From: Candidatus Peribacteraceae bacterium
GTDB taxonomy: Bacteria; Patescibacteriota; Gracilibacteria; Peribacterales; Peribacteraceae
Direction of reading: 5' to 3'
Assembly: GCA_030750465.1 (NCBI GenBank)
Contig: JASMHZ010000004.1
Location: 1 to 54,293 of the forward strand
DNA length: 54,293 nucleotides
The position numbers and the translations under genes are program-made. This document shows positions 1,646 through 49,061 of the stretch, piece by piece. Below the pieces are notes generated by a model that was given only the letters and a program-made list of their open reading frames with translations, did not search any database and was not told the origin of the DNA. Each line of letters opens with the position of its first letter. Position 1 is the stretch's first letter.

Positions 1646-1690
1646 ATTCGGGGTTCGGTTTTCGGGTTCGGGTTCGGTTTTCGGGTTCGA
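1646..1690. repeat. word array, left bracket of S23 gene 1
   Basis: GTTCGGTTTTCGGGTTCG twice in tandem (1653-1670, 1672-1689). Confidence 0.9.
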
Positions 1691-1691
1691 A

Positions 1692-2042
1692 TTAGGTGAA
1701 TTTACGAACCATACCTGAAAGCATTTGCCCTTCTTGATTCGTTAGATCAATTAATCGAGTGGCATCTTCTTTGGATAAATATTTGAGCTCAATTACAATG
1801 AGGATAAACGCATGCAATTCTGAACACTCACCTCGTGCAATTATATATTTGTGATATTTATCTGCCTTCGTTCTTCTGCTGTAGCCTTCGGCGATATTAG
1901 CTAGGATACTTGTAGATGCTCTTCTCATTTGCGAGCTGAGCCCGAATTTCTCTTCGTTAGGGAATTGAGAAGTTATTTTGTATATTTCTTTCACTAGCCT
2001 TATTCCATTTTGCCAAGCATCTAGAGTAGTAAATGAAGTCAT
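1692..2042 (-). CDS. four-helix bundle protein (S23 / 23S rRNA intervening-sequence protein family)
   Basis: LDAWQNGIRLVKEIYKIT..FP.EEKFGLSSQMRRASTSILANIAEGYSRR signature. Confidence 0.9.
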   Translation of the reverse strand: MTSFTTLDAWQNGIRLVKEIYKITSQFPNEEKFGLSSQMRRASTSILANIAEGYSRRTKADKYHKYIIARGECSELHAFILIVIELKYLSKEDATRLIDLTNQEGQMLSGMVRKFT

Positions 2043-2055
2043 AATATTTAATGTA

Positions 2056-2081
2056 ATAACCGAACCCGATAACCGAACCCG
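2056..2081. repeat. word array, right bracket of S23 gene 1 (inverted)
   Basis: ATAACCGAACCCGATAACCGAACCCG. Confidence 0.9.
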
Positions 2082-3587
2082 CTACAGCCCTATATTCTGC
2101 CTATACTGAATCGCCTCCCCCAAGTGCGGTGTACATATATCTTTTTTGCCCGCTAGATCGGCAATTGTTCGTGCAACCTTGATGATTCTATGGTAGCTGC
2201 GCGCTGATAGATCCATTTTTTCGGCAGCCTGTTTCAGAAGAGTCTTAGCTTCTTTTTGTAGAATGCAAAGTGCATCAATATGCTTAACATTCATTTCATT
2301 ATTAAGTGAAATTGGAAAATTTTTGAATCTTTCAAATTGTTTTTCGCGTGCACTGTTAACGCGTTTAAGAATTTGCGTACTGGTTTCGCAATTTACTCCT
2401 GGAGCTTTTTGTAAATCCTCAATTGGAACGGATTGAACATCGATAGTCAGATCAATTCGGTCAAGAAGAGGCTTGGAAATTCTTTTCTGAATTTTGTTTG
2501 CGTTGCCTGCGGAAAACTCAGGTGGGTTCATTGCAGCAACCATAATAAAGTCAGCTGGAAAAGTTACGCTCCCGTGCGCGCGGGTAATTGTTATCTGTCG
2601 ATCTTCGAGTGGTTGCCTTAGCACCTCCAAAACTTGAGCTGGAAATTCTGCCAATTCATCCAAGAACAAAACTCCCCTATGCGCCAATGTTATTTCTCCG
2701 GGCTTGGGGATTTGTCCGCCTCCAACAATACTTACTCCACTTGCAGTATGATGAATCAGTCTGAACGGTCTTTGTTGAATCAAGGGAGTATCCGCTGGAA
2801 GTTGATTTGCTATCGAATAAATCTGTGTAACTTCAATGGATTCCTCGTTATTTAGAGGGGGCAGAATGCCCGAAAAAGCCCTAGCTAATAACGTTTTCCC
2901 GGATCCAGGGGTTCCACTCAGAAGTACGTTGTGTCCGCCTGCTGCAGCAATCTCCAGAGCTCTTTTTGCGTGCTCCTGTCCGCGGACATCGGCGAAGTCG
3001 ATTTGATTCGGGGTTCGGTTGTTGGGTTCGGGTTCGGGAGGAGGAAGTGCAGGCTCCGGTGTAGCGTGCCCCATCACAACATCGACAAGTTCGTGAATCG
3101 AACTAACTCCAATAACATTAAGTCCTTTAATTAGTGCGGCTTCTGATGCGTTAACTTTCGGAACAACGATCGTAGAGATGTTGTGCTCTTTACATGCGAT
3201 AGCGGCGGGGAGAACTCCGGTTACATGACGCAGCGAACCGTCGAGTGCAAGCTCTCCTAAGAATGCCATGTCTTCAAAAGCATGAGCATCCACCAATTGT
3301 GATCCATCGATGATCACCATGCCGAGTGCGATGGCTAAGTCGTAGCGCGGACCGGACTTCCGTAGGTCAGCCGGTGCAAGGTTGACAGTTATTACCTTGC
3401 TGGATGGATACTTGAGACCACTTGACCGCAAAGCCATTCGAACACGTTGTTTACTTTCCTTTACGGCAGTATCCCCTAAGCCCACTATGTGCATACCAGG
3501 TTCATCTCCTTTGGTTGCGCCAACCTCCACGGCTATCCTTTCGCAATGGAGCCCAAACGAGGCAAAGGAGGTTAAATTTGCAAGCAT
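2082..3587 (-). CDS. YifB/ComM family Mg chelatase-like AAA ATPase
   Basis: MHIVGLGDTAVKESKQRVRMALRSSG; Walker A GTPGSGKTLLARA; start set at MLANLTSFASFGL. Confidence 0.93.
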   Translation of the reverse strand: MLANLTSFASFGLHCERIAVEVGATKGDEPGMHIVGLGDTAVKESKQRVRMALRSSGLKYPSSKVITVNLAPADLRKSGPRYDLAIALGMVIIDGSQLVDAHAFEDMAFLGELALDGSLRHVTGVLPAAIACKEHNISTIVVPKVNASEAALIKGLNVIGVSSIHELVDVVMGHATPEPALPPPEPEPNNRTPNQIDFADVRGQEHAKRALEIAAAGGHNVLLSGTPGSGKTLLARAFSGILPPLNNEESIEVTQIYSIANQLPADTPLIQQRPFRLIHHTASGVSIVGGGQIPKPGEITLAHRGVLFLDELAEFPAQVLEVLRQPLEDRQITITRAHGSVTFPADFIMVAAMNPPEFSAGNANKIQKRISKPLLDRIDLTIDVQSVPIEDLQKAPGVNCETSTQILKRVNSAREKQFERFKNFPISLNNEMNVKHIDALCILQKEAKTLLKQAAEKMDLSARSYHRIIKVARTIADLAGKKDICTPHLGEAIQYRQNIGL

Positions 3588-3791
3588 AAGATTTGTGTAT
3601 ACCCCTTCGCTTTTGAGATTCAATGCAAAATCTGAGTGTTTACAGTAATCTTATTTAGTCTTAGCAAAAGCTTCGGGGCATTGTAATAATAAATAAAATA
3701 AGGAGTACAAAAGGGATACAGTGTACTATAGTACACCCATATATCAAGCTAAAAGTTGAACCGATGTTCACCATTCCATACCCAATTGCTT

Positions 3792-4202
3792 ATGAGTGTT
3801 GTTCGTAAACCAGATGATACAAATGGTTATGAATCCCCTGCTTTGGCGCCTCATTTAAAACTTGGAAAAACAGGAGAAGAGATCGCCGTAAAATACCTTC
3901 AAAAAAATAATTATTTGGTATACAAAAGGAACGTAAGGCTCGGGCATGACGAAATAGATATCATTGCATATGAAACGCAAGAAAAACAATTGGTGTTTGT
4001 TGAAGTAAAAACAAGAAAGAAAAAATGGAACAGCTATTCTCCTCTTATGAATTTAACTAGAGCTAAAAAAAAGAAAATGATCAGAGCAAAAAATAAATGG
4101 ATTTCGGAGAATGAGTATGATGAAGGATGTAGAATCGATGTGATCTGCGTGGTTGGAGAATCAGTTGTAAATCATTACAAGGGAATTAGCGTAAATGGCT
4201 AA
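3792..4202 (+). CDS. YraN/UPF0102 family endonuclease-like protein
   Basis: GKTGEEIAVKYLQKNNYLVYKRNVRLGHDEIDIIAYE...LVFVEVKTRK. Confidence 0.9.
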   Translation: MSVVRKPDDTNGYESPALAPHLKLGKTGEEIAVKYLQKNNYLVYKRNVRLGHDEIDIIAYETQEKQLVFVEVKTRKKKWNSYSPLMNLTRAKKKKMIRAKNKWISENEYDEGCRIDVICVVGESVVNHYKGISVNG

Positions 4203-4316
4203 ATTGCTAAACTGTTCGACAGTGCGTTACGCAGATTGGACGTATCAGATGCTTGTCTCTGGGTGGGTTTGTTTCTCGCTCTGCGAGCAATTTAACAATT
4301 TAGCAGTTTAGTTAGT
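4203..4316. repeat. intergenic word hairpin
   Basis: AATTGCTAAACTGTTCGA ... TCGCTCTGCGAGCAATTTAACAATTTAGCAGTTTAG. Confidence 0.8.
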
Positions 4317-5033
4317 CAATAATACTGTCACTCGTTCAGAAGAATTCAATATCCTCTTAAGTGGCCATCTCCTCTCATCCTCACTACTCTCCATCATCTC
4401 CTCAAATACTCTTCTCTTTTCAGCTCCCTTCAGTATCAGAATGTGTTCGCTAGCGGACCCGATCACGTTTAGAGAAAGCGTAATGCGATCATGAACGTCA
4501 AACACATCAGTAGTTGCATGCAATGTGAAGTGTTCGTCAGAAACTGCATCGTCAGAGAGCGGGGGAAACAAACTTGCAATATGGCCGTCCTTTCCCATCC
4601 CAAGAAGCACCACGTCAGGCAACCATTCGCTGAAGAGGTCCTTAAGGACAGAAGTGTACGCTTGGACACAGTCGGGGATGTTAAGAGAAGTTTCCGGAAA
4701 ATAAATCTGGGAGTGGGGGATTCGCGCGTGCTTTAAAAGGGTGTCTTTGACCATTCCCTGATTAGAGAACTTGTCATCTGGTGGAACATACCCTGCACCA
4801 CTCACAGCGCTCGGGTGCAGGGTGTACCTTTCATCGATTAAGAAGATCGAAATTTTTTCCCAGTCAATGTCAGTTTTACCCAGTTCTTCATAAATCGGTC
4901 GTGGTGTTGAGCCGCCGGAAAGTCCGAGCGTGCAATGATTCCTCTTGGAGATGGCACGGTCTATGGATGCCTTTAGAAGTTCTACGCCCCTGGAGGTGAA
5001 GTCGTGATCTGAATTAGCATTTAGTATTTTCAT
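4308..5033 (-). CDS. pgl: 6-phosphogluconolactonase (with an inserted loop)
   Basis: LGLSGGSTPRPIYEEL, FLIDERY...VPPDDKFSN, VLLGMGKDGHIASLFP; adjacent to zwf. Confidence 0.92.
   Translation of the reverse strand: MKILNANSDHDFTSRGVELLKASIDRAISKRNHCTLGLSGGSTPRPIYEELGKTDIDWEKISIFLIDERYTLHPSAVSGAGYVPPDDKFSNQGMVKDTLLKHARIPHSQIYFPETSLNIPDCVQAYTSVLKDLFSEWLPDVVLLGMGKDGHIASLFPPLSDDAVSDEHFTLHATTDVFDVHDRITLSLNVIGSASEHILILKGAEKRRVFEEMMESSEDERRWPLKRILNSSERVTVLLTN
4790..4823. repeat. palindromic element inside pgl
   Basis: ACCCTGCACC-actcacagcgctcg-GGTGCAGGGT, 10-bp perfect stem. Confidence 0.8.
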
Positions 5034-5040
5034 GTGTTGA

Positions 5041-5146
5041 GTTGAGAATTAACAATTGACAATGGACAATTGACAATTAGCGCAAGCGAGAACTCAGGTT
5101 GTTTCTCTTTAGAATTGTCAATTGTACATTGTTCATTGTCAATTAA
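5041..5146. repeat. intergenic word hairpin
   Basis: AATTAACAATTGACAATGGACAATTGACAATT ... AATTGTCAATTGTACATTGTTCATTGTCAATT. Confidence 0.9.
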
Positions 5147-6650: not shown

Positions 6651-6725
6651 AATTAATAATATTGAATATATGGTAAAAGAAGTTCATCTGTTGTAGTATA
6701 TATGACATTCTTACCCTTATTTATT

Positions 6726-7636: not shown

Positions 7637-7678
7637 ATAGCTTGCACATCAAAATAATTTTTGTAGAATCTCTGTAAA

Positions 7679-7912: not shown

Positions 7913-8003
7913 ACAATCGACACGTCACGCTTTGCGTGACTGTCAACAATCAACAATCAACATAGTCGATTGTTGAAAGGCCCGAAGGGCCGTGTTGATT
8001 GTC
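7913..8003. repeat. intergenic word hairpin with nested GC hairpins
   Basis: CAATCGACACGTCACGCTTTGCGTGAC..CAACAATCAACAATCAACA ... GGCCCGAAGGGCCGTGTTGATTGTCGATTG. Confidence 0.9.
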
Positions 8004-8035
8004 GATTGTATATCAATTTTTTCCCACAACTTACT

Positions 8036-9301: not shown

Positions 9302-9748
9302 CTATTTTCTTTCGATAGTTAAAACCCTACTAATAGCCTTATCTACAGACCCTTCAACTTGCGTAATCATGCATACAATAGATTCTTTTTGGGAATCTGG
9401 ATCTGGAGGTTCAATACTTACTTCGCCAACCCCTATAGGAGCTGCAGTACGGCACTGTGGAAATTCTATGGGATCCCCTCTTTCAAGTCGCGCGAACTGA
9501 TCTTCGTCGGCAATTAAAGAGTTCATATTTGATACCAATTTTCTTTCGATAGTTAAAACCCTACCAATATCACCTACAGCTTCTTGAACGTGTGTAATAA
9601 TGCATTCAATAGGTTCTTGGGTACCTGAATCTGGAGCTTCAATACGTATTGGGCCAGCTCCTATAGGAGCTGCAGTAACGGCTTGTTGATATTCTATGGA
9701 ATCACCTCTTTTTTCAAGTTGCGAGAACTGCTCGTCGTCTTTGGCAAT
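9302..9748 (-). CDS. uncharacterised protein made of two tandem ~70-aa repeats; no canonical start codon (possible ATT start)
   Basis: Open frame continues upstream of the 78-aa ORF in the track; LIAKDDEQFSQLEKRGDSIEY..AAPIGAGPIRIEAPD..VLTIERK and LIADEDQFARLERGDPIEF..AAPIGVGEVSIEPPD..VLTIERK; GGAGGG 7 nt before ATT. Confidence 0.55.
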   Translation of the reverse strand: MAKDDEQFSQLEKRGDSIEYQQAVTAAPIGAGPIRIEAPDSGTQEPIECIITHVQEAVGDIGRVLTIERKLVSNMNSLIADEDQFARLERGDPIEFPQCRTAAPIGVGEVSIEPPDPDSQKESIVCMITQVEGSVDKAISRVLTIERK

Positions 9749-12660: not shown

Positions 12661-13785
12661 TCAGACTTTGTTATCTTCAAGTAATTTGCAATATCTCTTC
12701 ACCATCTTATTCACAGTGAATTGCTGTTGGGCGGTCTTGAAACCGGCTTTTGCGACAGAGTTCCTCAGATCTGCGTTATCAATCAATTTCAAAATTCCCT
12801 CCTTCAATTTTTCAACTGAAGCAGCTTCAACCACAATCGCATCCTTGCCATCTTCAAGATAATCAGCAATTCCACAGGCATCAGTTACAACTACAGGAAC
12901 TTCCAGCATCATAGCTTCGGCAATAACCAATCCGAACGGGTCGTGTTCGCGAGAAGGGAGGACGAGGAGGTCAGTTGATTTGTAAAAAGAACATAAATCT
13001 TCAACTCTGGACTTGAGAGCAATTGGCAATTGGCAATTAGCAATTGACTCCTTGATTTGATCTGCGTCACGGCCTGAGCCAACTATTGTTAGATTAATTC
13101 CTCGAATATCTTTGACAGCATCAATTAAGAGATCAACACCTTTGTCCTTTGTTAGTCGAGAGATGCATCCGATGTGGAGGTAGTATGGGTGTGGGCGGGC
13201 GTTCGGGTTCGGGTTCGGATTTGGGTTCGGGTTCGAGATGAATCGATCAGGATCTATTCCATTTGGAATTGCAACAACCTTATCTTCAGGGAAGCCAAGA
13301 TTTACATAAATCTTTTTACTGAGCTCAGAGACAACAATTGTTGTTGCATTATTGCTTAGCTTTCTTAAACGTTGGAGCCAGGGGTTCCGGGTCAGCCAGC
13401 GTCCGACTCGGTCATGTTCTAGCCAGAAAGTTCGAATATTCGAATATTCGAATATTCGAGTCAACAATAATTTCTCAGTCAGACTCAACATGATAACAGC
13501 ATCAGCCTTTGGTAAATTGTCGACTGCTTGTTCCAGCAATTTCTTCATTCCCTTCTTCCTCCACAGAAAATTTACGGCTCCCCATTTGGTTACGGGAGGA
13601 GGGCCGATTGTAAGTTGGGTAACGGGGATCTTCCTCCTCTTACATTCCTTAAGGAGAGTCGGGCAACTTCCCAAGAATCTAACCTCGTGGCCGTGCTGGA
13701 TCAATCCTTCCATCAGAGACAGAACCTGTACTTCAGCCCCGCCGTAAGCCGATTCTAGGGGGAATCTGGTGAAGAGGATCCTCAT
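12661..13785 (-). CDS. glycosyltransferase family 4
   Basis: YGGAEVQVLSLMEGLIQHGHEVRFLG..IPNGID..SREHDPFGLVIAEAMMLEVPVVVTDACG; three repeat-derived in-frame insertions. Confidence 0.9.
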   Translation of the reverse strand: MRILFTRFPLESAYGGAEVQVLSLMEGLIQHGHEVRFLGSCPTLLKECKRRKIPVTQLTIGPPPVTKWGAVNFLWRKKGMKKLLEQAVDNLPKADAVIMLSLTEKLLLTRIFEYSNIRTFWLEHDRVGRWLTRNPWLQRLRKLSNNATTIVVSELSKKIYVNLGFPEDKVVAIPNGIDPDRFISNPNPNPNPNPNARPHPYYLHIGCISRLTKDKGVDLLIDAVKDIRGINLTIVGSGRDADQIKESIANCQLPIALKSRVEDLCSFYKSTDLLVLPSREHDPFGLVIAEAMMLEVPVVVTDACGIADYLEDGKDAIVVEAASVEKLKEGILKLIDNADLRNSVAKAGFKTAQQQFTVNKMVKRYCKLLEDNKV

Positions 13786-16186: not shown

Positions 16187-17689
16187 ATGACCACTTCTGC
16201 CCCTCTCTGGAAATCCAAATGGCTCTTTATTCTTGCTGCAATTGGTGCCGCTGCAGGACTTGGCAACCTTTGGCGTTTCCCATACATGGTGTATGACAAC
16301 GGTGGTGCTGCGTTTATAGTCGCATACTTAGTCTGCTTACTTGTTTTCGTAATTCCTCTTGTAACGCTGGAAACTGCCTGGGGACAGTTGGAAAGAAAAG
16401 AAATAGTCTCTGCGCTTGGCGCAAAGGCCGGGTGGCTTGGAAGATTTTTTGGATGGATGATAGTTCTTACCGTGGCAGGTATTGCCGGTTATTATCTGAC
16501 GGTTATTGGCTGGAGCGTAAATTTCCTTTATCACAGCCCTATGCTTGCTTGGGGAGAGAACGCTCAGGAATTTTTCTTCACTAACATATTAAACTTCCAC
16601 GAAGATCCGTTCTCTTTTGGGGGCTTTTCGACTCCGATTCTCGTAGGTCTTGTGATTTCTTACCTGACCGTTTATTTCTCAATTTTTAAGGGAATAACTT
16701 CTATCAGCCATGTAATCAAATGGACTGTTCCGCTTCCGTTTATTCTCCTTTTAGTTCTATTCTTAAACTCACTTACGCTTCCTGGAAGCACTGAGGGATT
16801 TAAATTTTTGATATTACCTGATTGGAGCAAACTTTCTGATCCTGAAGTTTGGAGAGCGGCGGCAGGACAGTCATTCTTCTCCGCGAACATAGGCTTTGGA
16901 CTGATTATTATGTATGCAGGGTTCAATCATGAGAAAACCAACATTGCCCAAGCGGCATTCATAGTATCCATCGGAAACGTTCTTGTCAGTGTCCTTGCGG
17001 CTCTCGCAATCTTTGGCACTCTTGGATATACGGCAGCTCAGCAGGGAGTAGCACTTACCGAGGTTGTAGCATCCGGTCCGACTCTTGCATTTGTTGCATT
17101 CCCGAATGCACTTTACACATTACCATTCGCGCGCGAGCTTTTTGCAACATTATTCTTCCTGACCGTATTCACACTTGCTATTGATTCGGCGTTTGCAATT
17201 ATTGAAATTGTCGCAACAACAGTCAGAAACGAGTTTAAAGAAATTTATCAAAAGGTTTCACACGAAGTCTTCATGATCATTATGTGCGTGATTCTATTTT
17301 TCTGGTCGCTTGCATTCGCTGGCAGGAACGGATTGCTCAGATTAGATGTATTCGATCATCTTCTAGTTGAACATGTGGTGTTCTGGTTCCTCATCCCTGA
17401 GTTTGTTATTTTGGCTTGGATTACTCCTGTAGATAAGTTGAGGAGATACATAAATCAGGTTTCCAAGATGCATATAGGCAAATGGTTCAATGTCTTGGTA
17501 AAATTCCTGGTTCCGGTTCTTCTTGCGGCAATGTACATTCCCGCAATTGCAGGAGAATTTACCAAGCCTTATGGTGATTATCCGGTTGAGTTCCTAAAAC
17601 AGTGGATGATGTATCCTGCGATTATAATTGTCGTGGCTTCAGCTTTGCTCGCGCTTAGGAGCCATAGGAAGGCTAGGGCGGTAAAATAA
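16187..17689 (+). CDS. neurotransmitter:sodium symporter (NSS/SNF) family transporter
   Basis: WLFILAAIGAAAGLGNLWRFPYMVYDNGGAAFIVAYL. Confidence 0.95.
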   Translation: MTTSAPLWKSKWLFILAAIGAAAGLGNLWRFPYMVYDNGGAAFIVAYLVCLLVFVIPLVTLETAWGQLERKEIVSALGAKAGWLGRFFGWMIVLTVAGIAGYYLTVIGWSVNFLYHSPMLAWGENAQEFFFTNILNFHEDPFSFGGFSTPILVGLVISYLTVYFSIFKGITSISHVIKWTVPLPFILLLVLFLNSLTLPGSTEGFKFLILPDWSKLSDPEVWRAAAGQSFFSANIGFGLIIMYAGFNHEKTNIAQAAFIVSIGNVLVSVLAALAIFGTLGYTAAQQGVALTEVVASGPTLAFVAFPNALYTLPFARELFATLFFLTVFTLAIDSAFAIIEIVATTVRNEFKEIYQKVSHEVFMIIMCVILFFWSLAFAGRNGLLRLDVFDHLLVEHVVFWFLIPEFVILAWITPVDKLRRYINQVSKMHIGKWFNVLVKFLVPVLLAAMYIPAIAGEFTKPYGDYPVEFLKQWMMYPAIIIVVASALLALRSHRKARAVK

Positions 17690-17845
17690 TGGTTTTATCC
17701 TATATTTATATACACCCGCCCCCCAGGCAGGGGTGGGTAAGCGGTACGGTGGGCTGAAATAGGGTTTATGCTCGAGCGGAACAATCACCTGTTTTCCAGC
17801 CTAACCATTTGAAAAGGACTTAAACCACGGTACAATGACCCGAAC

Positions 17846-19825
17846 ATGCCTAAGACAACACCATTCAAGCTCGTTTCCGACTTTAAACCTACTGGTGATC
17901 AACCAAAAGCCATCGAACAGCTTATCAAGGGTTTAAATAACGGAGAGCGTCACCAGACATTACTGGGAGCAACTGGTACAGGAAAGACATTTACTATGGC
18001 GAATGTAATTCAGGAAGTTCAACGTCCGACTCTTGTTCTTGTGCACAACAAAACTCTGGCTGCTCAGTTGTGTTCAGAGTTTAACATGTTCTTCCCGAAC
18101 AATGCGATCAGTTACTTCGTTTCGTACTATGATTATTATCAACCCGAAGCATATATGCCCGCGACGGATACTTATATAGAGAAGGATGCATCAATTAACG
18201 AGGAGATAGAAAAGTTCAGGCATGCTGCCACTTACAACCTCCTCACTCGTCGTGATGTTTTGATCGTTGCATCAGTCAGTTGCATCTACGGTCTTGGAAG
18301 CGTCGCTGATTATGAAGCAATGGCAATAACACTCAAGCGTGGTGAAGCAGTACAGCGTGATCAGCTTCTCAGGCGCCTCACGGACATACAATACAAACGC
18401 AGTGGGCTTGAGTTCAAACAAGGAATGTTCCATGTACTTGGTGACACAGTAGAAGTATTTCCTCCCGCTGGCGACACGGTAATAAGAATGGAAATGCCGT
18501 ATGATGAAATAGAAGTAATTCAAGAAGTGGACAGCTTCACCGGCGAACTCATCACCGATCTAAATGAAGTGAATATTTTCCCTGCAGTTCACACGGTTAC
18601 AACACAGGAAAAGATCGACAAAGCATCAGATGAAATCCTCAAAGATCTGGATGTGAGGGAGAAAGAATTGCTTGATGCAGGAGAAAATTCAAAAGCAGAG
18701 CGTCTCCGCCAACGAACTGAATATGATTTGGAAATGCTTAAGGAAACCGGATATTGCTCAGGCATTGAAAACTACAGTCGTTATCTTGCCGGCAACAAGC
18801 CAGGCATGCCTCCATCAACTCTCCTAGATTACTTCCCGGATGACTTCCTTCTATTCGTAGACGAGTCACACATTTCAGTTCCACAAGTTGGAGGAATGTA
18901 TGAAGGAAATTTCAGCCGAAAGAAAACTTTGGTCGACTTCGGTTTTCGCCTTCCCAGTTCGCATGATAATCGTCCGCTTAAGTTCAAAGAATTCGAGGAG
19001 CACATAAAACAAGCAATTTATGTCTCTGCCACTCCCGGCAAATATGAATATGCAAACACTCCGAAAGATTTGATAGCGGAACAGATAATTCGTCCAACAG
19101 GACTTCTGGATCCTGTGATTACAGTAAAGTCTTCCAAAGGACAGATTAACGATGTTATTAAGGAGATTGATGCAACTATTAAGCGAGGCGAGCGCGTACT
19201 TATCACGACGCTTACAAAAAAGATGTCAGAGAAGCTTACAGACTATCTGAAAGAAGCTGACTACAAAGTAAGATACTTACACAGCGATGTGGAAACTTTG
19301 GAAAGGATAGAAATACTCAGGCAACTTAGAACCGGAGAGATCGATATCTTAGTTGGAATTAACTTGCTTCGTGAAGGACTGGATCTGCCCGAAGTCAGTT
19401 TCATTGCAATTTTAGATGCGGACAAACAAGGTTTCCTCCGTTCACGCGATGCATTGATTCAAACAATCGGACGCTGTGCCAGAAATATCAATGGGCATGT
19501 GACTTTATACGGCAGTAAAACTTCGGATGCTATGAAAGCAGCGATTGAGGAAACTGACCGCCGTCGAACAATCCAAGAAGCCTACAACAAGAAGCACAGC
19601 ATCACTCCTCAATCCATTGTAAAAGCCATTCATGATATTGCAGAGGAGAGCCGTAAAGCCGAGCTCAAACGTCCGCGCAGAAGACATGACAAGATTCCAG
19701 CTGACGAGAAGAAGAGACTTATGGAAGAGCTCGAGGAACAAATGGATCTGGCTTCGCAAAACTTAGAGTTCGAGAAGGCTGCTGACCTTAGAGACGAGAT
19801 AGAACTGCTAAGGAGGGGAGAATGA
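17846..19825 (+). CDS. uvrB: excinuclease ABC subunit B
   Basis: GDQPKAIEQL, LLGATGTGKTFTMANVI, FVSYYDYYQPEAYMPATDTYIEKDASINEEI, LREGLDLPEVSFIAILDADKQGFLRS. Confidence 0.98.
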   Translation: MPKTTPFKLVSDFKPTGDQPKAIEQLIKGLNNGERHQTLLGATGTGKTFTMANVIQEVQRPTLVLVHNKTLAAQLCSEFNMFFPNNAISYFVSYYDYYQPEAYMPATDTYIEKDASINEEIEKFRHAATYNLLTRRDVLIVASVSCIYGLGSVADYEAMAITLKRGEAVQRDQLLRRLTDIQYKRSGLEFKQGMFHVLGDTVEVFPPAGDTVIRMEMPYDEIEVIQEVDSFTGELITDLNEVNIFPAVHTVTTQEKIDKASDEILKDLDVREKELLDAGENSKAERLRQRTEYDLEMLKETGYCSGIENYSRYLAGNKPGMPPSTLLDYFPDDFLLFVDESHISVPQVGGMYEGNFSRKKTLVDFGFRLPSSHDNRPLKFKEFEEHIKQAIYVSATPGKYEYANTPKDLIAEQIIRPTGLLDPVITVKSSKGQINDVIKEIDATIKRGERVLITTLTKKMSEKLTDYLKEADYKVRYLHSDVETLERIEILRQLRTGEIDILVGINLLREGLDLPEVSFIAILDADKQGFLRSRDALIQTIGRCARNINGHVTLYGSKTSDAMKAAIEETDRRRTIQEAYNKKHSITPQSIVKAIHDIAEESRKAELKRPRRRHDKIPADEKKRLMEELEEQMDLASQNLEFEKAADLRDEIELLRRGE

Positions 19826-24410: not shown

Positions 24411-24454
24411 ACGATTGTTAAATTGTCAAACTGTTAAATTGTTCGCAGAGCGAC
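24411..24454. repeat. word array, left bracket of S23 gene 2
   Basis: CGATTGTTAAATTGTCAAACTGTTAAATTGTTCGCAGAGCGA. Confidence 0.9.
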
Positions 24455-24478: not shown

Positions 24479-24853
24479 TCACTTGTTTAGTTTGCGCATA
24501 GTAAAATTCGATAGATTGTTGATTTCTCTTGGTAATTTTTTTAGACCAGCAAAAATACTGTCATATTGCACCTGTGAGATCAGCTCTCTGCGTTTTGCCT
24601 TCTCATTCCAGTTTAAGGATTCATACGTTGACGAAAAGCTGTAATTGTAAAATTTAATTTTGTCTCTTTTAGTTCGTCTTCCAAATCCTTCAGCAATATT
24701 AGCCGCTATTGAATCCACTGAACGAACGAATTGCTCTCCTATTGTATTTTTTGCAAATCTATCCCATTCTTTTACGATATCCCACACTTCTTCTGAAAGC
24801 TTGTATGCAATTTTGTATGCACTTAGATCATTTAATTGAAGATATTTTTTCAT
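24479..24853 (-). CDS. four-helix bundle protein (S23 family)
   Basis: LNDLSAYKIAYKLSEEVWDIV..IGEQFVRSVDSIAANIAEGFGRRTKRDKIKFYNYS. Confidence 0.9.
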   Translation of the reverse strand: MKKYLQLNDLSAYKIAYKLSEEVWDIVKEWDRFAKNTIGEQFVRSVDSIAANIAEGFGRRTKRDKIKFYNYSFSSTYESLNWNEKAKRRELISQVQYDSIFAGLKKLPREINNLSNFTMRKLNK

Positions 24854-24891: not shown

Positions 24892-24926
24892 TTCGCTCTG
24901 CGAACAATTTAGCAATTTAACAATCG
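24892..24926. repeat. word array, right bracket of S23 gene 2 (inverted)
   Basis: TCGCTCTGCGAACAATTTAGCAATTTAACAATCG. Confidence 0.9.
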
Positions 24927-27698: not shown

Positions 27699-27734
27699 AT
27701 TTCGATTGGACTCACTACGAGTCGTTATTTCTAA

Positions 27735-28757
27735 CTATTTTACCTTAAAAGCTTCATAATTACAAGATTTGCCCGATTTCAACATACAGTTAAAGTACTC
27801 CTGTTCATCCAAAATGCCGTCTCTATCCGAGTCTTCGGTCGTAGGATCGGTCTCACCTTTATCAACTTTACCGTTAAGGTTAACATCCTCACCGCGCACC
27901 TTTTTGCTGTGTGTGTCAACTCTACAAAGTCCATCACAAAGACCATCCCGATCGGAGTCTATTTGCAGTGGATTTGTTTCTCCCATATCTACTCTTCCAT
28001 TTCTATTGTAATCCTCCAGACCATCAACTATTCCGTCTCCATCTGAATCCCTCATTACGGGGCTGGTACCCAGAGAAAAGATTTCTATCCCGTCATTCAA
28101 TCCATCTCCGTCGGTATCCTCAATATCCGGATCGGACTTTTGATCTGCTTCAATGTAAGCATTAACTCCATCGCCGTCTTTATCAATTCCGATAGAGATG
28201 GGAGTTTCTGTCATCAAGTAACAAGTCGTACCTCCTTCAAATATTTCCATTTGATGGCGAACTCGTCCCCTGTTGTATTCTGCTTGGTTTAGTTTTTTTT
28301 CTGAGTAGTCTCTAGATAGCGAGAATTTAGTTCTCCTTATATTTTTTTCTTTTTGTCGCCTGACGCTTCTTTCCTTTTCCGAAAGGAAAATGCGTCCAGG
28401 AAGTCCGCGCCTCTTCATTTGCTGCATTTTTTCGTAATCTTCCGGGAAACAGTATCCCCAGTAACGTACATTATATCCGCTATTGCCAAATAGAACTTTT
28501 CTGTATACCTTCTTTTCTTTTGGAGGTATTTGAAATAAGACATTAACGTGAGCAGGGGCTGTTATGCCCATTTCTATATCATCTGCTGTGAATGTTTTCC
28601 ATGGAACCACACCTCGCATGTGACCGGGGAGTAAACGTGCTTGGAGCGAGGGTTCCTCGATATTTGTTACTGCGAATGCCACAAAGGCCAAACACATTAC
28701 GCTCAAACTGAGCGTCATTCTCCTCATTGCCTTTAGTAAACTTGGTTCAGGTTGCAT
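27735..28757 (-). CDS. exported protein with thrombospondin type 3-like calcium-binding repeats
   Basis: DKDGDGVNAYIEADQKSDPDIEDTDGDGLNDGIEIFSLGTSPVMRDSDGDGIVDGLEDYN. Confidence 0.85.
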   Translation of the reverse strand: MQPEPSLLKAMRRMTLSLSVMCLAFVAFAVTNIEEPSLQARLLPGHMRGVVPWKTFTADDIEMGITAPAHVNVLFQIPPKEKKVYRKVLFGNSGYNVRYWGYCFPEDYEKMQQMKRRGLPGRIFLSEKERSVRRQKEKNIRRTKFSLSRDYSEKKLNQAEYNRGRVRHQMEIFEGGTTCYLMTETPISIGIDKDGDGVNAYIEADQKSDPDIEDTDGDGLNDGIEIFSLGTSPVMRDSDGDGIVDGLEDYNRNGRVDMGETNPLQIDSDRDGLCDGLCRVDTHSKKVRGEDVNLNGKVDKGETDPTTEDSDRDGILDEQEYFNCMLKSGKSCNYEAFKVK

Positions 28758-33963: not shown

Positions 33964-35578
33964 TCTTCCAAACCGACCATCCTTCCCCTCTTTCCATGAT
34001 CTGGAGCTCAGATTTTAGCCTGTTCAAGTCCCATTCAGGATTCCTCTTTTCGTCCCAGACTACCAGGTCAATTCCATATTGAGTTAGGAATTTCTCAGGC
34101 TCCTTATCAACTTGTGAGCATTCGTTTCTGACCAGCTCAAGTTCTTCTTCGCGGATCTTGGGATCTGGAAATGCGCCGAGTGCGTCTGCATAAACCAGGT
34201 TGCGGGAAGCCTCAAGATTCCTCAGATTCGGATCAAGCGGCAAGTAAGTCAGACATACTCTCTGTGCATTTTCTTTGTGGGAAAGAAGAATATTCTTTAA
34301 ATAAATTGAATAAACAACATCGTGATGCGTATGCGATGTGATCAAACTCTGTGTATCCCTGTCAGACAGAATCCTTGCGCGCGGGATTTCATCAAGAGTT
34401 GAAAGAAGATCTGACAAATGTTGCGATGCGAAGTTTTCCGGAGAGGGATTCCATTGTTTGATTATCCACCTTCCGTCGTATGCAATTGCAGAGATATAGA
34501 GGACTGCGGCAAGTGCGGGGATTATCAGAATCTTAGATTTAAATTTCCACGCAAGAAGAATCACAACAATAGCTGCGAGTAGAAGTGAAAAAATGCTGTG
34601 CGAAACAAAATTAAAAACAGTTCCATGAATCACCTGTTGGTGCATTACTACAAATGCGGTGAATACAACTACAATTGCCGGACGGTGCGGTTCAAGCTCT
34701 TTGTATTTTTTCTTGAGCAGAATTATCAGTCCCATAATCATCGTCAGGAATAGTGCGCTATATATCCACGACTCAGGTAATCGTCCGGGGCGCATGCCAC
34801 TTCTAAACACTGCCACGTCAGCTAACGGATGGTTCATCACAGACAAAGTCTGGAAAACGAAAGGAAGTGCAAAGATAACTCCAATAATTGCAGATAGAAG
34901 TAGAATTTTTAGTTCGGTTGTCGGTTGTCGGTTGTCGGTTTTCGTGAAGTTTTCAACTAAATTCCAAATCACCATCAGTCCTAACCAAAGCCAGGCGAAT
35001 GTCCAACTCCAAACATAAACTCCTACTAAAGTACCAAGCAACATCCCTCCAATTACAGTGGGTCCCTTTCGTTTTTTTGCGTAAGCTAAACTTAAAGCAG
35101 TCAGAGCAAGCATCATCAGCAAAAAGCTTGAGCGCAGATGGATTGGACGGTTTAAATTATAAAGTTGTGTTGCAATCAATATTAGAGAACCTGCGTAAGA
35201 TTGAAGGCGTGTAAAACCACATATGCTCAGGAACCAAATAAGAACAAGAAATATCAGAACCGGAATTACTGAGTCCATGATCGTCAGAACTACCCAAGAG
35301 TGATCAAAGACTGGACGGAGAATCATTCCAAGACTAAGTTCAATCAAAGCAAATTGTGAACCGACCATTCCTTCTTCTCCTACGAAAGCTTCAGATACCT
35401 GATTCAAATTACCAGTCAACGCCTCCTGAATGCGTGCAAGATAAATTTCCTCATCAGAATTTAGATGCACATATACTCCTTTGTACGCAGGATTCAAAAT
35501 GTGGATTAAAAATGGACCCTGCATTATCAGGGCTATAGCTATTGATGAGGCGATGATTAGTGTCTTCCAGTGGGGCAT
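33932..35578 (-). CDS. multi-pass membrane protein, STT3/PMT-like
   Basis: Many TM segments; GVYVHLNSDEEIYLARIQEAL N-terminal luminal-type motif; 32-nt convergent overlap with topA. Confidence 0.7.
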   Translation of the reverse strand: MPHWKTLIIASSIAIALIMQGPFLIHILNPAYKGVYVHLNSDEEIYLARIQEALTGNLNQVSEAFVGEEGMVGSQFALIELSLGMILRPVFDHSWVVLTIMDSVIPVLIFLVLIWFLSICGFTRLQSYAGSLILIATQLYNLNRPIHLRSSFLLMMLALTALSLAYAKKRKGPTVIGGMLLGTLVGVYVWSWTFAWLWLGLMVIWNLVENFTKTDNRQPTTELKILLLSAIIGVIFALPFVFQTLSVMNHPLADVAVFRSGMRPGRLPESWIYSALFLTMIMGLIILLKKKYKELEPHRPAIVVVFTAFVVMHQQVIHGTVFNFVSHSIFSLLLAAIVVILLAWKFKSKILIIPALAAVLYISAIAYDGRWIIKQWNPSPENFASQHLSDLLSTLDEIPRARILSDRDTQSLITSHTHHDVVYSIYLKNILLSHKENAQRVCLTYLPLDPNLRNLEASRNLVYADALGAFPDPKIREEELELVRNECSQVDKEPEKFLTQYGIDLVVWDEKRNPEWDLNRLKSELQIMERGEGWSVWKITSSSNHLSS

Positions 35579-36660: not shown

Positions 36661-36834
36661 CTACTCAATATTCTCCCAGAAGCACTTTTGGCAATATACC
36701 TTATAAGGAGCATCCTCTGGGTAAACAGAAAGCATATTCTCGCTACATTTGTCACATACACGTTGGTACATCTTACGTTCACTTCTAAGTGCCATGCGCT
36801 GCTTGTGTCGACATGCAGGGCAGAAATCGGGCAA
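36661..36834 (-). pseudogene. probable 5'-truncated zinc-ribbon protein
   Basis: LPDFCPACRHKQRMALRSERKMYQRVCDKCSENMLSVYPEDAPYKVYCQKCFWENIE*; only TTG available as start; N-terminal half missing at a duplication breakpoint. Confidence 0.6.
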
Positions 36835-36890
36835 ATCTTGTAATTATGAAGCTTTTAAGGTAAAATAGCTAGAAATAAACAAAAACAAAT

Positions 36891-38157: not shown

Positions 38158-39864
38158 TTAAATACTTGCATCCTGGATCCTTCGTATCCCCTCATTCGCC
38201 TCAACAGAAAACTTATTCCACTCAAGCGCCTTTTCAAACTGTTCACGGGCTTTATCAGTTTGGTTCTTTTTAAGGTAGAGGTTTCCAAGCTTAGCTCTGG
38301 CAATTACATACGAGCCATCAAGCTCAACCGCTTTTTCATAAAATGAGATTGCTTCATCAGATCTTCCTGTTTGTTCAAATAGTGAACCAAGTGAAAAGTA
38401 AGGCTCAGGATTATTTGGATCCATATTAATTGCTGTGCGGAATCTTTCCTCCGCGTCAGTCACCTGCCCTGTTGCCGCGTAAACAAATCCTGCGTTCATG
38501 TGCAGGAGGGAATGATCCATGTACTTCACTCCTTCGGTTATAACTTTAAATGCTTCTTCAAACTTATTCTGATGCCTGAGGATTGTTGCAAGACCAACGC
38601 GAGCTCCGACTGATTCTGGATAAATAGAGAGGGTTCGCCTAAAAACTCCGTCAGGCGTTTTCCATGTATTTGTTTGATTGATTGAGAGGACTATTAGAAT
38701 AATAATAATAGTTGATCTTGCGATTGGTCGAATGCTTTTATAAATATAAACAAGAACGATTAGAAGCCCAACCATTGGTAAATACGCATAACGATCAACT
38801 GCGAAGAATACTAAGTTTGCTTTTCCAATGTTCAGATACGTTGGAGCAAGGGTCACCAAATACCATCCGATTCCAAATGTAATAACTGGATGTTTCTTGA
38901 GTGATTTAATAGCAATCATAATTAGAATAATTGCGAGTATAACGCTTGGGAGAATCCGCATATCAGTCAGAGATATGTCTCCTTGAAGTGGATAAATGAT
39001 AGTCAAATCATTTGGTATCAAGAATTTATATATATAAAAGATTGTGCTTTTGCAGGCGACGAGGATTTTATCGATAAGAGTTACGGATGCGATGACGCGG
39101 GCTTTGCCGCCGAGGGCAACTACAACAAAGATCAGAGTTAGGATTAAGTAAGGAACGATTGTAATCGGGCTCGGTTTTCGGGTTCGGGTTCTCAAAAGTA
39201 GCCAATGCAGAATTAGAATTCCCAAAAGAGTTACAGCTATAACTTTTGAAAGTAGTGCGAGTAGGAACATTGTGATGCTAAGCCAGTAAGCTTTGCGATT
39301 GCCTTTGATGAAGTCCAGATAAAAAGTAAGTGACGCAAAGAAGAAAAGTCCGGAGAGCAAGTCTTTTCTTCCAGCAAGCCACACAACGGCTTCTGTATTT
39401 AATGGATGAATGGCAAATATCAAACCACCGAATAATGCAAGCTGTGCTTTTCTTGAGGAACAATTGACAATTGACACTTCGACTCCGCTCAGTACAGGCA
39501 ATTGACAATTGACATCTTCATTCTCGCTTGCATTGGATTTGTTGGATGCCAAGAGTTGCATCAGTATCCTAGTTACGAGTAGCGCATTTATAATGTGGAT
39601 CAGAATATTAGTCAGATGATAATTGAATGGAGCAAGTTCACCGATCAGATAATTGAACTGGAAGCTTACGAAAACTAGAGGTATATAAAGTTCAGGATCG
39701 TATGTTGTAAAGAAGTGTTTGAGGTTCTCCCAATTAATAGCACGTATCGCCAGATTCTCCACAATCAGAAATGAGTCATCCACAGGTGCAAAGCCATGGA
39801 ATAGGGAAGCTCCAAAGGCGAGGAATGGGAGGATGATAAAAAGAGGAATCTTCAGTTTTTGCAT
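38158..39864 (-). CDS. membrane protein with C-terminal TPR repeats (PMT/O-linked glycosyltransferase-like)
   Basis: Multi-TM N-terminus, FNYHLTNILIHIINALLV, AIHPLNTEAVVWLAGRKDLLSGLFFF; TPRs NPEPYFSLGSLFEQTGRSDEAISFYEKAVELDGSYV. Confidence 0.88.
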   Translation of the reverse strand: MQKLKIPLFIILPFLAFGASLFHGFAPVDDSFLIVENLAIRAINWENLKHFFTTYDPELYIPLVFVSFQFNYLIGELAPFNYHLTNILIHIINALLVTRILMQLLASNKSNASENEDVNCQLPVLSGVEVSIVNCSSRKAQLALFGGLIFAIHPLNTEAVVWLAGRKDLLSGLFFFASLTFYLDFIKGNRKAYWLSITMFLLALLSKVIAVTLLGILILHWLLLRTRTRKPSPITIVPYLILTLIFVVVALGGKARVIASVTLIDKILVACKSTIFYIYKFLIPNDLTIIYPLQGDISLTDMRILPSVILAIILIMIAIKSLKKHPVITFGIGWYLVTLAPTYLNIGKANLVFFAVDRYAYLPMVGLLIVLVYIYKSIRPIARSTIIIILIVLSINQTNTWKTPDGVFRRTLSIYPESVGARVGLATILRHQNKFEEAFKVITEGVKYMDHSLLHMNAGFVYAATGQVTDAEERFRTAINMDPNNPEPYFSLGSLFEQTGRSDEAISFYEKAVELDGSYVIARAKLGNLYLKKNQTDKAREQFEKALEWNKFSVEANEGIRRIQDASI

Positions 39865-43953: not shown

Positions 43954-43959
43954 CACTTA

Positions 43960-45713: not shown

Positions 45714-45768
45714 AATGAATAATTAAAAATGAGAAGTGAATAGTTAAAAGTGAATAGTGAATAGTTGG
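45714..45768. repeat. tandem word array
   Basis: GAATAATTAAAAATGAGAAGTGAATAGTTAAAAGTGAATAGTGAATAGTT. Confidence 0.8.
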
Positions 45769-45785
45769 CAAGTAGGAATTAAGAT

Positions 45786-46871
45786 TTACTTAACGATACT
45801 CTCGATTTTTTCTCTAAACCTCTCCGCCCTAAATTCTTCAGCTCTTTTCTTAATAGATTCAGAATCGAAATTCATCTCCTCGAATCTATCAATTGCACCT
45901 TTAAGAGACTGCACTGTTTGCTCCGAAAAGAATACTCCGGACATATCCTCTGCAATCGTATCCAGAGCTCCTCCTTTCTTAAACGCGATGACAGGAGTTC
46001 CTTGAGATTGAGCTTCTAACGGTGCAATACCGGCGTCTTCCTCTTGCGGATAGAGAAGTGCTTTTGAATTCGCATAAATTTCAGGCAACTTTTCATCAGG
46101 AACATAACCTAAGAATTCAACAGTCGGTCCTGCCAAGTTCTTTAGTCTCGATTCATCTGGACCTTTGCCTGCGATCATGAGAGGAATGTTATGTTTGTTC
46201 GCGCATTCGATTATTAAATCAAATCTTTTATAAGGAACCAGTCTACCCAATGCCAAGTACGCGCTGTTGCGGTTGTCGGTTGTCGGTTGTCGGTTTTCGA
46301 AAAATCTGTCGGCTACCGGTGGAAGTATTACAGTAGCATCACGGTTGTAAATTTTCTTAATTCGGTCAGCGACAGTTGTAGAGTTAGCTAAAAATAAATC
46401 AACTCTCTTTGCAGTCGTCATATCCCACCTTCTAATCTCATTTAATTTTCTTCTGATTCTTTTCCAAAAGAACTTCGGAATATTCGAATCTTCCAAATAC
46501 TTCTTTTCCATTTCCCATGCATACCTCATTGGAGTATGGCAGTAACAAATGTGCGTGGCATTGCTTGGAGGAATAATCCCCTTTCCTATTGCGTGCGACG
46601 AACTAAGGATCACATCAAACTCATCAAGATCAATCCTCTCCATCTCTCGCGGCATCAGAGGAAGGAGGCATCTGTGATGCTTTCCAAGTAACTTGTACCA
46701 TTTCTGCAAACGACTGGTCCTTATATCAGCATCGTTCAAAGGTCCTAGATTCCCATGATTTGCAATTGTGGTAAATATTGGGGCATCTGGCCAAAGTTTA
46801 TGAAACTCGGCGATCACATGCTCAGCGCCTGCGTAGAGGGGGAGCCAGTCGGCAACGATCGCGAGTTTCAT
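45786..46871 (-). CDS. glycosyltransferase family 4
   Basis: MKLAIVADWLPLYAGAEHVIAEFHKLWPDAPIFTTI; CYCHTPMRYAWEM; ALLYPQEEDAGIAPLEAQSQGTPVIAFKKGGALDTI. Confidence 0.93.
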   Translation of the reverse strand: MKLAIVADWLPLYAGAEHVIAEFHKLWPDAPIFTTIANHGNLGPLNDADIRTSRLQKWYKLLGKHHRCLLPLMPREMERIDLDEFDVILSSSHAIGKGIIPPSNATHICYCHTPMRYAWEMEKKYLEDSNIPKFFWKRIRRKLNEIRRWDMTTAKRVDLFLANSTTVADRIKKIYNRDATVILPPVADRFFENRQPTTDNRNSAYLALGRLVPYKRFDLIIECANKHNIPLMIAGKGPDESRLKNLAGPTVEFLGYVPDEKLPEIYANSKALLYPQEEDAGIAPLEAQSQGTPVIAFKKGGALDTIAEDMSGVFFSEQTVQSLKGAIDRFEEMNFDSESIKKRAEEFRAERFREKIESIVK

Positions 46872-46881
46872 TAGTTAGAGT

Positions 46882-46958
46882 GTACTATTACTACTCACTA
46901 CCCACTACTCACTTACTTAAAATCTTGAAATAGTGTGTAGTGAGTAGTGGGTAGTAGG
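46882..46958. repeat. intergenic word hairpin
   Basis: CTACTCACTACCCACTACTCACTTAC ... GTGTAGTGAGTAGTGGGTAGTAG. Confidence 0.9.
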
Positions 46959-46979
46959 CAGATTGGCTATTATAGCTGC

Positions 46980-47894
46980 ATGCTCAAACCACCTCGTCGT
47001 CTTCCAAAGCGCTACAACCGCCCTGTTACTCCTATGACGAAGCGTTTGGTAAAGAAGCACAAGAGGAGGCACAAGAAAAGCAGGTGGAAAGATTTCCTAC
47101 ACAAATTCGAACGTAAAGGTCAGAGAGCCCTTAAGTCCTGGTGGCGATCTTGCATGTGGTGGATTTTGATAGCCTTGTTCGGTCTTATACTTCTTGGATT
47201 CGGTTTATTAATATTTTCACCGCTTATTCAAGTAAGAGAAGTTAAAGTAGTGCGCTTTGATTCCAGACTGGACATAGAAGAAGTCCAGAAAATTCTAACA
47301 CCGTTTTTTGGGAAACATCTATTCTTCCTGCCTGCTCATGAAGTAGCAAGCACTCTCGAAGATGCTATAAAAGATCTGGAAGATATAAGTATTTCAAAAC
47401 TTTATCCTTCTGAATTAAGTGTAAAGATAAAATTGGATCCTCTTATTTCACGCATAAAAATTATAGATCCTGATCAGGAATCAGATCTAACTTCAACTGG
47501 AGCAACAGTTGATTACTTAACTGACGAAGGAGTATATGTAATTGTTCCGTTGCCGGAAGATTCGAAATCATTACCTGTCATTGGCATTGTCGATTGGGGA
47601 GTTCGTCCCGTCGAAGGCGATGTGCTTGTTGTGCCCAGATTGCTTGAAAGAATGTCGGAAACCGAAAAGGCATTGTCGGAACAATTCGGTCATTCCATCG
47701 CAGGTAGGACAGTCTATATACGAGCACAGGAGTATCATCTCCATCTTGATAAGGGGATAGATATTTGGTTTGACATGGTATCGCCCTTGAACGAGCAATT
47801 ACTGCGTTATCGAACATTCTTAAAAAGTGTCAATACAGAAGAGGTGAAGAAATATATTGATTTGAGAGTGTCGGATAGGGTGGTCTATAAATAA
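46980..47894 (+). CDS. FtsQ/DivIB-like POTRA protein
   Basis: Basic N-terminus, single TM, IQVREVKVVRFDSRLDIEEVQKILTPFFGKHLFFL..LEDISISKLYPSELSVKIK. Confidence 0.8.
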   Translation: MLKPPRRLPKRYNRPVTPMTKRLVKKHKRRHKKSRWKDFLHKFERKGQRALKSWWRSCMWWILIALFGLILLGFGLLIFSPLIQVREVKVVRFDSRLDIEEVQKILTPFFGKHLFFLPAHEVASTLEDAIKDLEDISISKLYPSELSVKIKLDPLISRIKIIDPDQESDLTSTGATVDYLTDEGVYVIVPLPEDSKSLPVIGIVDWGVRPVEGDVLVVPRLLERMSETEKALSEQFGHSIAGRTVYIRAQEYHLHLDKGIDIWFDMVSPLNEQLLRYRTFLKSVNTEEVKKYIDLRVSDRVVYK

Positions 47895-47982
47895 GAAAAC
47901 AGAAGAAACAGAAGAAGCAGATGAATCAGAGGATATTATTTAGTATTTCTCTTCTGATTCCTCTGTTTCCTCTGGTTCCTAA
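47894..47982. repeat. intergenic word hairpin
   Basis: AGAAAACAGAAGAAACAGAAGAAGCAGATGAATCAGAGG / CTTCTGATTCCTCTGTTTCCTCTGGTTCC. Confidence 0.8.
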
Positions 47983-48080
47983 CCTTTGTTGGTAAAATTC
48001 TTGACTAATGTGTTATTAGTTACACTAAAATTTAGAATAATCACTTCAACAACTCGTTCACTCCGCCTATTCTACGTCGG

Positions 48081-49061
48081 ATGTATCGCTCAATTATCGC
48101 AGCGCTTTTGTTTGGGCTTGTTCCAGTTTCTTTGCCGTCGATGGATGAGGTAGTTCCTGTGATTGAAAATTTGGCTATTTCTCCTCCGTCTGAACCATTG
48201 GAAATCGAGAACAGACTTTCTGCCTCCGGAGTTTTGATATTGGATGCTAAAAGTGGACAAAGATTATACGGGAAACAAATTGATGTGCGTCGACCCATGG
48301 CGAGCCTTACCAAACTAATGACGGCTATTATTATCCTGGAAAACCATGAACTGGATGAGCTTGTAACCATTCCATACAAAGCTGCTCGAATAGATGGAAA
48401 CACAGCGTATCTTCCGGTCGGTGAAGACTTTACTGTTAAGGATTTACTCTCGGCTGTATTAATCGCGTCAGCCAACGATGCAGCGTACACGCTTGCAGTT
48501 TTTCATAGCGGAACTATTGAAGCTTTTGCCGAAGAGATGAATGCACGAACGGAAGCTTTGGGACTCAAAGACACGCGGTTTAGAAATCCAATCGGATTAG
48601 ATAGCTTTGAACAATGGTCCACTCCGCAGGACATTGCCTGGCTTGCAGCTTTTGTAATGAGCTACGAAGAACTATTCAAAAAACTTTCTAAGCGTGGTGC
48701 TCGCATTAGGAGTGTTCAGGGCAGTTACATAGATTTAGTCCATACTCATGCGCTCATGCATATTAATGGTTCTTCTTTGGATGAAGTGGCGAAAGTGGTA
48801 GCCGGAAAAACAGGGACAACAAATGCTGCCAAGGAATGCTTGTTCTCTTTGGTGGATTTCGATGGCAGGTCGTATCTTGTGGTTCTTCTTTATTCTTCAC
48901 AAAGATATAAGGATATGAAGACAATATTGGATACTATCGAAGAAAAAGTAGAAATAGGAGATAAGACTCATAAAGACGAAAACTTTACATTCGAAATCCG
49001 AAATCCGAACCCACTCCGCCAAGGCTTCGAGGGTCAAGAATCCGAAATTAATGTATCATAA
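48081..49061 (+). CDS. D-alanyl-D-alanine carboxypeptidase (S11)
   Basis: ASGVLILDAKSGQRLYGKQIDVRRPMASLTKLMTAIIILE; SANDAAYTLA; VVAGKTGTTNAA. Confidence 0.93.
   Translation: MYRSIIAALLFGLVPVSLPSMDEVVPVIENLAISPPSEPLEIENRLSASGVLILDAKSGQRLYGKQIDVRRPMASLTKLMTAIIILENHELDELVTIPYKAARIDGNTAYLPVGEDFTVKDLLSAVLIASANDAAYTLAVFHSGTIEAFAEEMNARTEALGLKDTRFRNPIGLDSFEQWSTPQDIAWLAAFVMSYEELFKKLSKRGARIRSVQGSYIDLVHTHALMHINGSSLDEVAKVVAGKTGTTNAAKECLFSLVDFDGRSYLVVLLYSSQRYKDMKTILDTIEEKVEIGDKTHKDENFTFEIRNPNPLRQGFEGQESEINVS

Follow-up and report, generated by a model that had tools for sequence, protein, structure and literature searches.

Short words iterated in tandem are scattered through a 54,293-nt stretch of DNA from a Candidatus Peribacteraceae bacterium (contig JASMHZ010000004.1, assembly GCA_030750465.1; hereafter the window), and most of them, in our assessment, probably belong to mobile hairpin elements, which at full length contain a gene for a four-helix-bundle protein (PF05635/TIGR02436) set between inverted arrays of the word. 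Proteins of this abundant family are often annotated as 'S23 ribosomal protein' or 'four helix bundle protein'. The proposal draws on direct observations: the association of gene and arms, words that are mostly private to each element, whole elements found in one sister species and missing from another, arms that are predicted to pair, and words that correlate with protein lineage. A first-pass annotation, made from the sequence alone, had described the words as a propagating DNA-level system inside coding genes; the link to flanked four-helix-bundle genes is what it missed. The window is contig 44 of a 1.0-Mb draft genome (G000; 64 contigs, about 82% complete), for which genome-wide counts refer to 980 kb of readable sequence, small contigs being masked. 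Genes were called with a simple open reading frame (ORF) caller written for this analysis. Four relatives from the same genus were compared, the nearest of which, the sister species G003, shares about 89% DNA identity with G000; small genomes, together with members of the class in which TGA is read as sense, suggest a lineage of Patescibacteria resembling Gracilibacteria/Peregrinibacteria.

The first element of the window lies between pyrF and comM. Its ORF, on the minus strand at 1692..2042, matches PF05635 (3.8e-36) and TIGR02436 (6.9e-34) and stands between a left arm of GGGTTC/GGTTTTC words (1646..1696) and a right arm made of two copies of ATAACCGAACCCG (2056..2081), the inverted complement of the left; the left arm pairs with 2060-2080 (inverted-repeat (IR) score 18), and RNA folding predicts that the two arms pair with each other (z -3.4). 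The second element, placed after a BacA-family gene, has its ORF on the minus strand at 24479..24853 (PF05635, 4.5e-23) between word arrays at 24422..24453 and 24893..24924 that are 91% complementary, and in the predicted RNA fold these arrays enclose the ORF (z -4.9). We propose this arrangement of word arm, four-helix-bundle ORF and inverted word arm, about 430-530 nt in all, as the full-length element.

The same arrangement recurs in other genomes. Arms were scored by the IR score of the inverted arrays flanking a gene, with cut-offs of at least 16 in G000, at least 14 in G003 and at least 12 in other phyla and in plasmids. PF05635 genes lie between inverted word arrays in 10 of 11 cases in G000 and 19 of 21 in G003 (29/32 together), against 5/156 for other small genes, and the flanking word is mostly private to each gene (GAACCC, AAACAGAGG, CGTTAATT, GTCACAA, AATAGTG, AGCGCAGT and others). 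Across the phylum Patescibacteria, arms occur at 17 of 29 four-helix genes and at none of 55 shifted controls. Relatives beyond this phylum were gathered by a protein search with a single-protein query: among archaea and other phyla 10 of 19 reach the cut-off while no control exceeds 11 (n = 36), arm-flanked relatives being found in ANME-1 archaea, Chitinophagaceae (Bacteroidota), Chloroflexi and Chthonomonadia (Armatimonadota), the last with near-perfect GGGAGTG arms. Finished plasmids, mostly cyanobacterial, from hosts including Nostoc, Calothrix, Anabaena, Trichormus, Geminocystis, Gemmatirosa and Azospirillum, give 14 of 15, with one of 30 controls scoring high; among them are arm-flanked four-helix genes that lie, in the sense direction, inside cyanobacterial CRISPR-cas operons (cas10-cmr3, cas6-cas4; loci L279 889-1245, L281 901-1260 and L284 877-1245). 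Word similarity tracks protein similarity among non-orthologous elements (Mantel r 0.29, p 0.0002; 24 elements with hand-curated arms). No earlier report of a link between such words and PF05635 was found in the open-access literature, subscription literature lying outside the search. On plasmid AZO_p2 of Azospirillum lipoferum 4B (L292), clear inverted word arms flank a four-helix-bundle-like match in a place where no gene is listed.

Comparison of related species, named as a check in the first-pass annotation, reveals whole elements that are present in one sister and absent from the other. At least four elements of G003 lack a counterpart in G000. The G000 allele is empty, without a word hairpin, at the slots of the C9, C64 and C67 elements and in the window at 17629..17861, where G003 carries another four-helix-bundle element (G003:C79:22243-22744); at the slots of the C41, C17 and C14 elements G000 has a gene-less word hairpin instead. 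When gain and loss are polarised by match coordinates in the outgroups G001 and G002, the C64 element proves to be shared by G003 and G001 and missing from G000 and G002, and none of G000, G001 and G002 has the C9 element, which would most simply have been gained in G003. Short forms without a gene (arm, loop, arm) appear to populate the intergenic regions: of the 489 intergenic regions that measure at least 60 nt, about half fall into gene-less word-hairpin families, whose loops and arms are common to several loci, and one such hairpin in the window (7920..8009; AACAATC/AATCGAC words around small GC stem-loops) is nearly unchanged in the sister. Across the genome 101 distant array pairs, nearly all intergenic, share non-periodic 20-mers, which upholds the copying between loci in the writing-or-copying mechanism first suggested. 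The slot beside comM (window 1604-2081) has the look of an insertion hot spot, holding a four-helix-bundle gene in G000 and G002 and a Y1-transposase (RAYT-like) gene or fragment in G003 (a fragment, in place of the four-helix ORF), G007, G015, G020 and G035.

The words are not, as the first-pass annotation had allowed they might be, simply as frequent as composition predicts. Exact runs of period 7 (at least 11 matches) number 98 in G000 and 0-1 in order-5 Markov genomes; the corresponding counts are 32 and 0-1 for period 6, 28 and 0 for period 8, and 42 and 0-2 for period 9, an enrichment of more than 20-fold to about 100-fold. In coding sequence there are 44 period-7 arrays (1-5 in codon-shuffled genes) and 56 period-6 arrays (7-12). 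The density of period-7 arrays is 15.3 per 100 kb in G000 and 0 in 100 kb of E. coli K-12, and 50 kb of a Nostoc plasmid contain 11 such arrays. The heptamer arrays of G000 are dispersed, mainly intergenic tandems of 7-nt units, with 55 distinct words among 149 arrays, so that no single word dominates; a common consensus behind all words was sought and set aside, the motif shared by the heptamers (4.45 bits, against 3.76 after letter shuffling) being too weak for a recognition site. Words of intergenic hairpins do also occur in genes, as had been stated, but the two lexicons overlap and yet differ (coding:intergenic, AACCCG 17:2, AACCGAC 4:0, AATTGAC 7:20), that of genes being poor in stops, and an inverted partner within 160 nt accompanies 61 of 147 intergenic arrays and only 4 of 111 coding ones. 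This count mostly contradicts a view of coding tracts as nothing but inserted hairpins; the exceptions, with an in-frame hairpin inside a gene, are G004 at the second GT4 linker and G003 in the STT3-like gene.

All the in-frame words listed for the window in the first-pass annotation are present where it placed them. GAACCC is read as EP in the comM linker (PPEPEPNNRTPN, 3006..3040), as NP in the first GT4 gene (NPNPNPNPNP, 13199..13237) and as TR in a TPR membrane protein (GAACCC/AAAACCG words, 39165..39192). In the genome as a whole, 17 GAACCC coding arrays read as EP/PE (6), SG/GS (5), NP/PN (3), TR/RT (2) and RV (1); five of the six possible readings of the hexamer are thus used, on both strands, which argues for an origin at the DNA level, as had been claimed. 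The second argument offered for this origin was a 30-mer, CGGTTGTCGGTTGTCGGTTGTCGGTTTTCG, which is indeed identical at 34915-34944 and 46270-46299, in two minus-strand genes and in different codon phases. But seven is coprime to three, and a 7-nt repeat therefore passes through all three phases every 21 nt and yields one cyclic heptapeptide (NRQPTTD) whatever the frame, so that for heptamers the argument from frames is empty. Whether one strand of a heptamer or the other is open to translation depends on stop codons, as noted for TAACTGA by MacGregor (PMC4679880).

At the same coding sites the sister mostly carries other words, a sign of recent turnover inside genes. The pairs (window/sister) are GGGTTC/GGGTTA in comM, where the sister has CCCTAA/CCCTCA words (PNPSPHPNP); GCAATTG/GAGAATT (13019..13046) and GGGTTC/GGGTTA (shorter by 24 nt in the sister) in the first GT4, in which TTCGAATA (13431..13459) faces a GGTTCG word and an assembly gap; TCGGTTG/GTCTCTC in the STT3-like gene, whose AACCGAC tract (34914..34944) corresponds to a longer in-frame word hairpin (GTCGCTTGTC...GACAAGTGAC); GTTCGGG/ATTAGCAG in the TPR protein, where two AATTGAC tracts (39460..39514) also face a GTTGATT word; and CGGTTGT/ACAATTG at the AACCGAC tract of the second GT4 linker (46270..46299). 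These tracts are all on the minus strand; a plus-strand CGAAATC tract (48992..49009), which forms part of the C-terminus in a D,D-peptidase-like gene, is absent in the sister. Throughout the genome, 42 coding arrays have an orthologous sister stretch, which holds another word in 16 cases, the same word in 11 and none in 15, by a loose array test that 13% of random coding positions also pass. Every unit may change in concert (TCGAATAT to TCGAATAC; AATTGTC to AATTCTC at equal length). The second GT4 linker has a period-7 array in all five members of the genus, with five different words, and G021, G014, G019 and G012, from other genera, add four more; in most other members of the family the linker is ordinary and array-free. 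Array-free linkers nearly all measure 23-29 residues between the same anchors, and so do those with an array, outside G001, G002 and G004. Judged from these alignments, coding words change in concert and linkers are overwritten more than inserted into, so that orthologue comparison, expected to reveal recent insertions, confirmed recent change of the words and mostly contradicted insertion, several sister pairs having equal length and a changed word. Orthologous words nonetheless resemble each other more than random pairs do (mean edit distance 2.21 against 3.22, p = 0.0006; hand-curated word pairs). This points either to inheritance, with homogenisation proceeding unit by unit, or to copies taken from a related source, and makes arbitrary writing something other than the simplest reading.

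The comM tract is identical at 30 of 32 nt to the left arm of the neighbouring element (1646-1677), and a coding array on contig 33 has a 35-nt phrase in common with that arm. Given the scarcity of paired coding arrays and their different lexicon, derivation of coding tracts from elements is plausible and no more, and is the weakest step of the proposal. Elsewhere in G000, three heptamer tracts lie in one 414-residue frame on contig 11 (10292-11533), of which the sister keeps one and has two changed, and a 5553-residue open frame on contig 22 (56827-73485) holds many in-frame AAAGAACG-type words together with other tracts, the genes beside it having the same words as inverted arms. The window also contains a 56-nt inverted repeat, 98% complementary and unrelated to the words, whose halves lie 9 kb apart (27725-27780 and 36823-36878), and a 228-nt tandem duplication with a match of about 79% (9304-9739).

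Could the coding tracts have arisen by local replication slippage alone, the words being born in place and drifting like micro- or minisatellites, with no need of a mobile element? We regard this as possible but rather doubtful. It would account for the nearness of orthologous words, for a period that stays constant while the word changes in the GT4 linker, and for the unpaired state of coding arrays. Borg tandem repeats, which likewise are fast-evolving and perfect and lie within and between genes, arise locally and independently (PMC9879509); their coding units, however, are always divisible by three, whereas 7-nt units are common in genes here and only one other period is commoner than 7 in coding arrays, although steps of +/-7 would break the frame. 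Slippage also leaves unexplained the composite phrases shared by unrelated loci and the association with four-helix genes. Selection on the peptides for flexible linkers, which the first-pass annotation had excluded outright, is very improbable as the source of the words: hydrophobic as well as polar readings occur among them, the hexamer readings and the differing sister words speak against it, and conserved peptides with random synonymous change of the DNA were not seen at the tracts. Tolerance at the peptide level does matter, since the words lie in linkers and at termini and stops are filtered out of the lexicon of genes, and some arrays (KPKP, PPPP, KKK) are ordinary and conserved.

It is unlikely, in our estimate, that the four-helix-bundle genes are passengers which landed in existing word hairpins (terminators or REP-like sites), so that the words would be the host's and not the element's. 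The gene-less hairpins at the C41, C17 and C14 slots and the prevalence of word families in intergenic regions suit this account, but the empty alleles without a hairpin do not; the arms match each other, with a word that differs by gene and follows protein lineage, and arms also flank the genes that sit within operons, cas10-cmr3 and cas6-cas4 among them. Less probable still is a REPIN/RAYT system in which Y1 transposases mobilise the words. G000 does have four Y1_Tnp genes, two of them flanked by hairpins, 38 of 57 genomes of the family have a Y1 gene, and the comM slot alternates between the two gene types. REPINs resemble the elements in their hairpin-forming inverted pair, gene-less copies and one protein-coding form, but their REP sequence is conserved and non-iterated and their protein is a Y1 transposase (PMC3116915), whereas the words differ by element and the linked gene is PF05635 and not PF01797; moreover, the hairpins flanking Y1 genes are GC-rich stems, not iterated words, and some family genomes with a period-7 GT4 array have no Y1 match (G019 and, approximately, G008). 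The two Y1 genes with such flanking stems, at contig 4 20966-21524 and contig 5 24639-25171 of G000, resemble REPINs in arrangement and are distinct from the words. An artefact of metagenome assembly, finally, is barely credible: the draft is incomplete and assembly gaps abut some sister sites, but frames stay open, five species agree on a site, and the same arms occur in finished plasmids.

We return to mobile hairpin elements. They would move together with their arms; fold or iteration, and not a fixed sequence, would mark their ends for recognition, with the four-helix-bundle protein assisting, perhaps as a nucleic-acid chaperone for a host-supplied polymerase or nuclease. The chaperone role is an attractive guess from kinship of the family to Avd of diversity-generating retroelements, discussed in PMC10053308; that kinship is weak here, the first ORF matching Avd at 8.7e-08 and the Avd model reaching 32 bits against a cut-off of 80. 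With no PF00078 reverse transcriptase match in G000, a retroelement of this kind was rejected, and neither reverse transcriptase nor Rfam families were supported as drivers of the words. Concerted change could come about if units are copied from each other with no net change of length, by slipped or fold-back template switching. Coding tracts would be mostly single unpaired arrays in permissive linkers, filtered by frame and stops and quickly turned over, which take words, and sometimes whole phrases, in common with element arms. Several points weigh against this proposal. No transposition was observed, a target-site duplication could not be defined, and no catalytic domain lies within the element. 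The rarity of inverted partners possibly indicates another route of origin for coding arrays; about a quarter of the coding comparisons keep the same word, several of these being ordinary low-complexity protein; and orthologous intergenic elements often have the same arms in both sisters while coding words differ, which ill fits one fast homogenising process. The arms of the Mantel test and the word pairs of the distance comparison were, besides, curated by hand. More tentatively, such elements might form a prokaryote-wide class with ends defined by iteration and inversion, each element carrying or making a word of its own, and the machinery of this class might also replace permissive gene sequence by words of 6-8 nt, in many cases with no change of length. 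If so, this would amount to sequence-indifferent rewriting of DNA and would be the source of the unexplained heptamer repeats in cyanobacteria and other prokaryotes.

Among the closest known systems is the intervening sequence (IVS) of 23S rRNA with its S23p/IVP ORF, described in Coxiella burnetii as a selfish element (PMC4990558). The protein family, the size (428 nt for that IVS) and a predicted stem closed around the ORF by terminal inverted repeats are shared; the window elements, however, lie between protein genes, Rfam finding no rRNA in the window, and intergenic or operonic copies number 11-21 per genome, with arms of tandem words that differ by element. Eukaryotic foldback transposons (Galileo, Tetris) also have internally repetitive inverted ends, but are larger, and Galileo has a P-superfamily transposase, of which none was seen here. 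Rickettsia palindromic elements likewise lie in frame inside unrelated genes (reviewed in PMC10969869), and the first-pass annotation had cited them as precedent; they are about 150 bp long with a conserved family sequence, whereas these tracts are 15-40-nt tandem words without conserved sequence that often replace residues, and were not assigned to that class. The heptamer repeats TAACTGA (MacGregor 2015, PMC4679880) and GGGNATC (Rehm 2015, PMC4692102) and the cyanobacterial STRR are similar in their 7-base units, single or in inverted pairs, mostly intergenic and sometimes in frame in genes (LSVISYQ). Each of those studies deals with a single type of word and identifies no carrier ('no mechanism is evident'), whereas here many words coexist without a dominant one, turn over at fixed sites and are linked to a gene. 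Heptamer repeats catalogued in cyanobacteria, Xanthomonas, Beggiatoaceae and others had no known carrier, and the elements may account for many of them; the association suggests a role for the PF05635 family, which has no assigned function, and because it occurs in bacteria as well as archaea, with culturable cyanobacteria among the carriers, the spread of such repeats becomes testable. Protein linkers in these genomes, for their part, are being rewritten at the DNA level in units of 7 nt, although strong selection against this period would be expected in genes.

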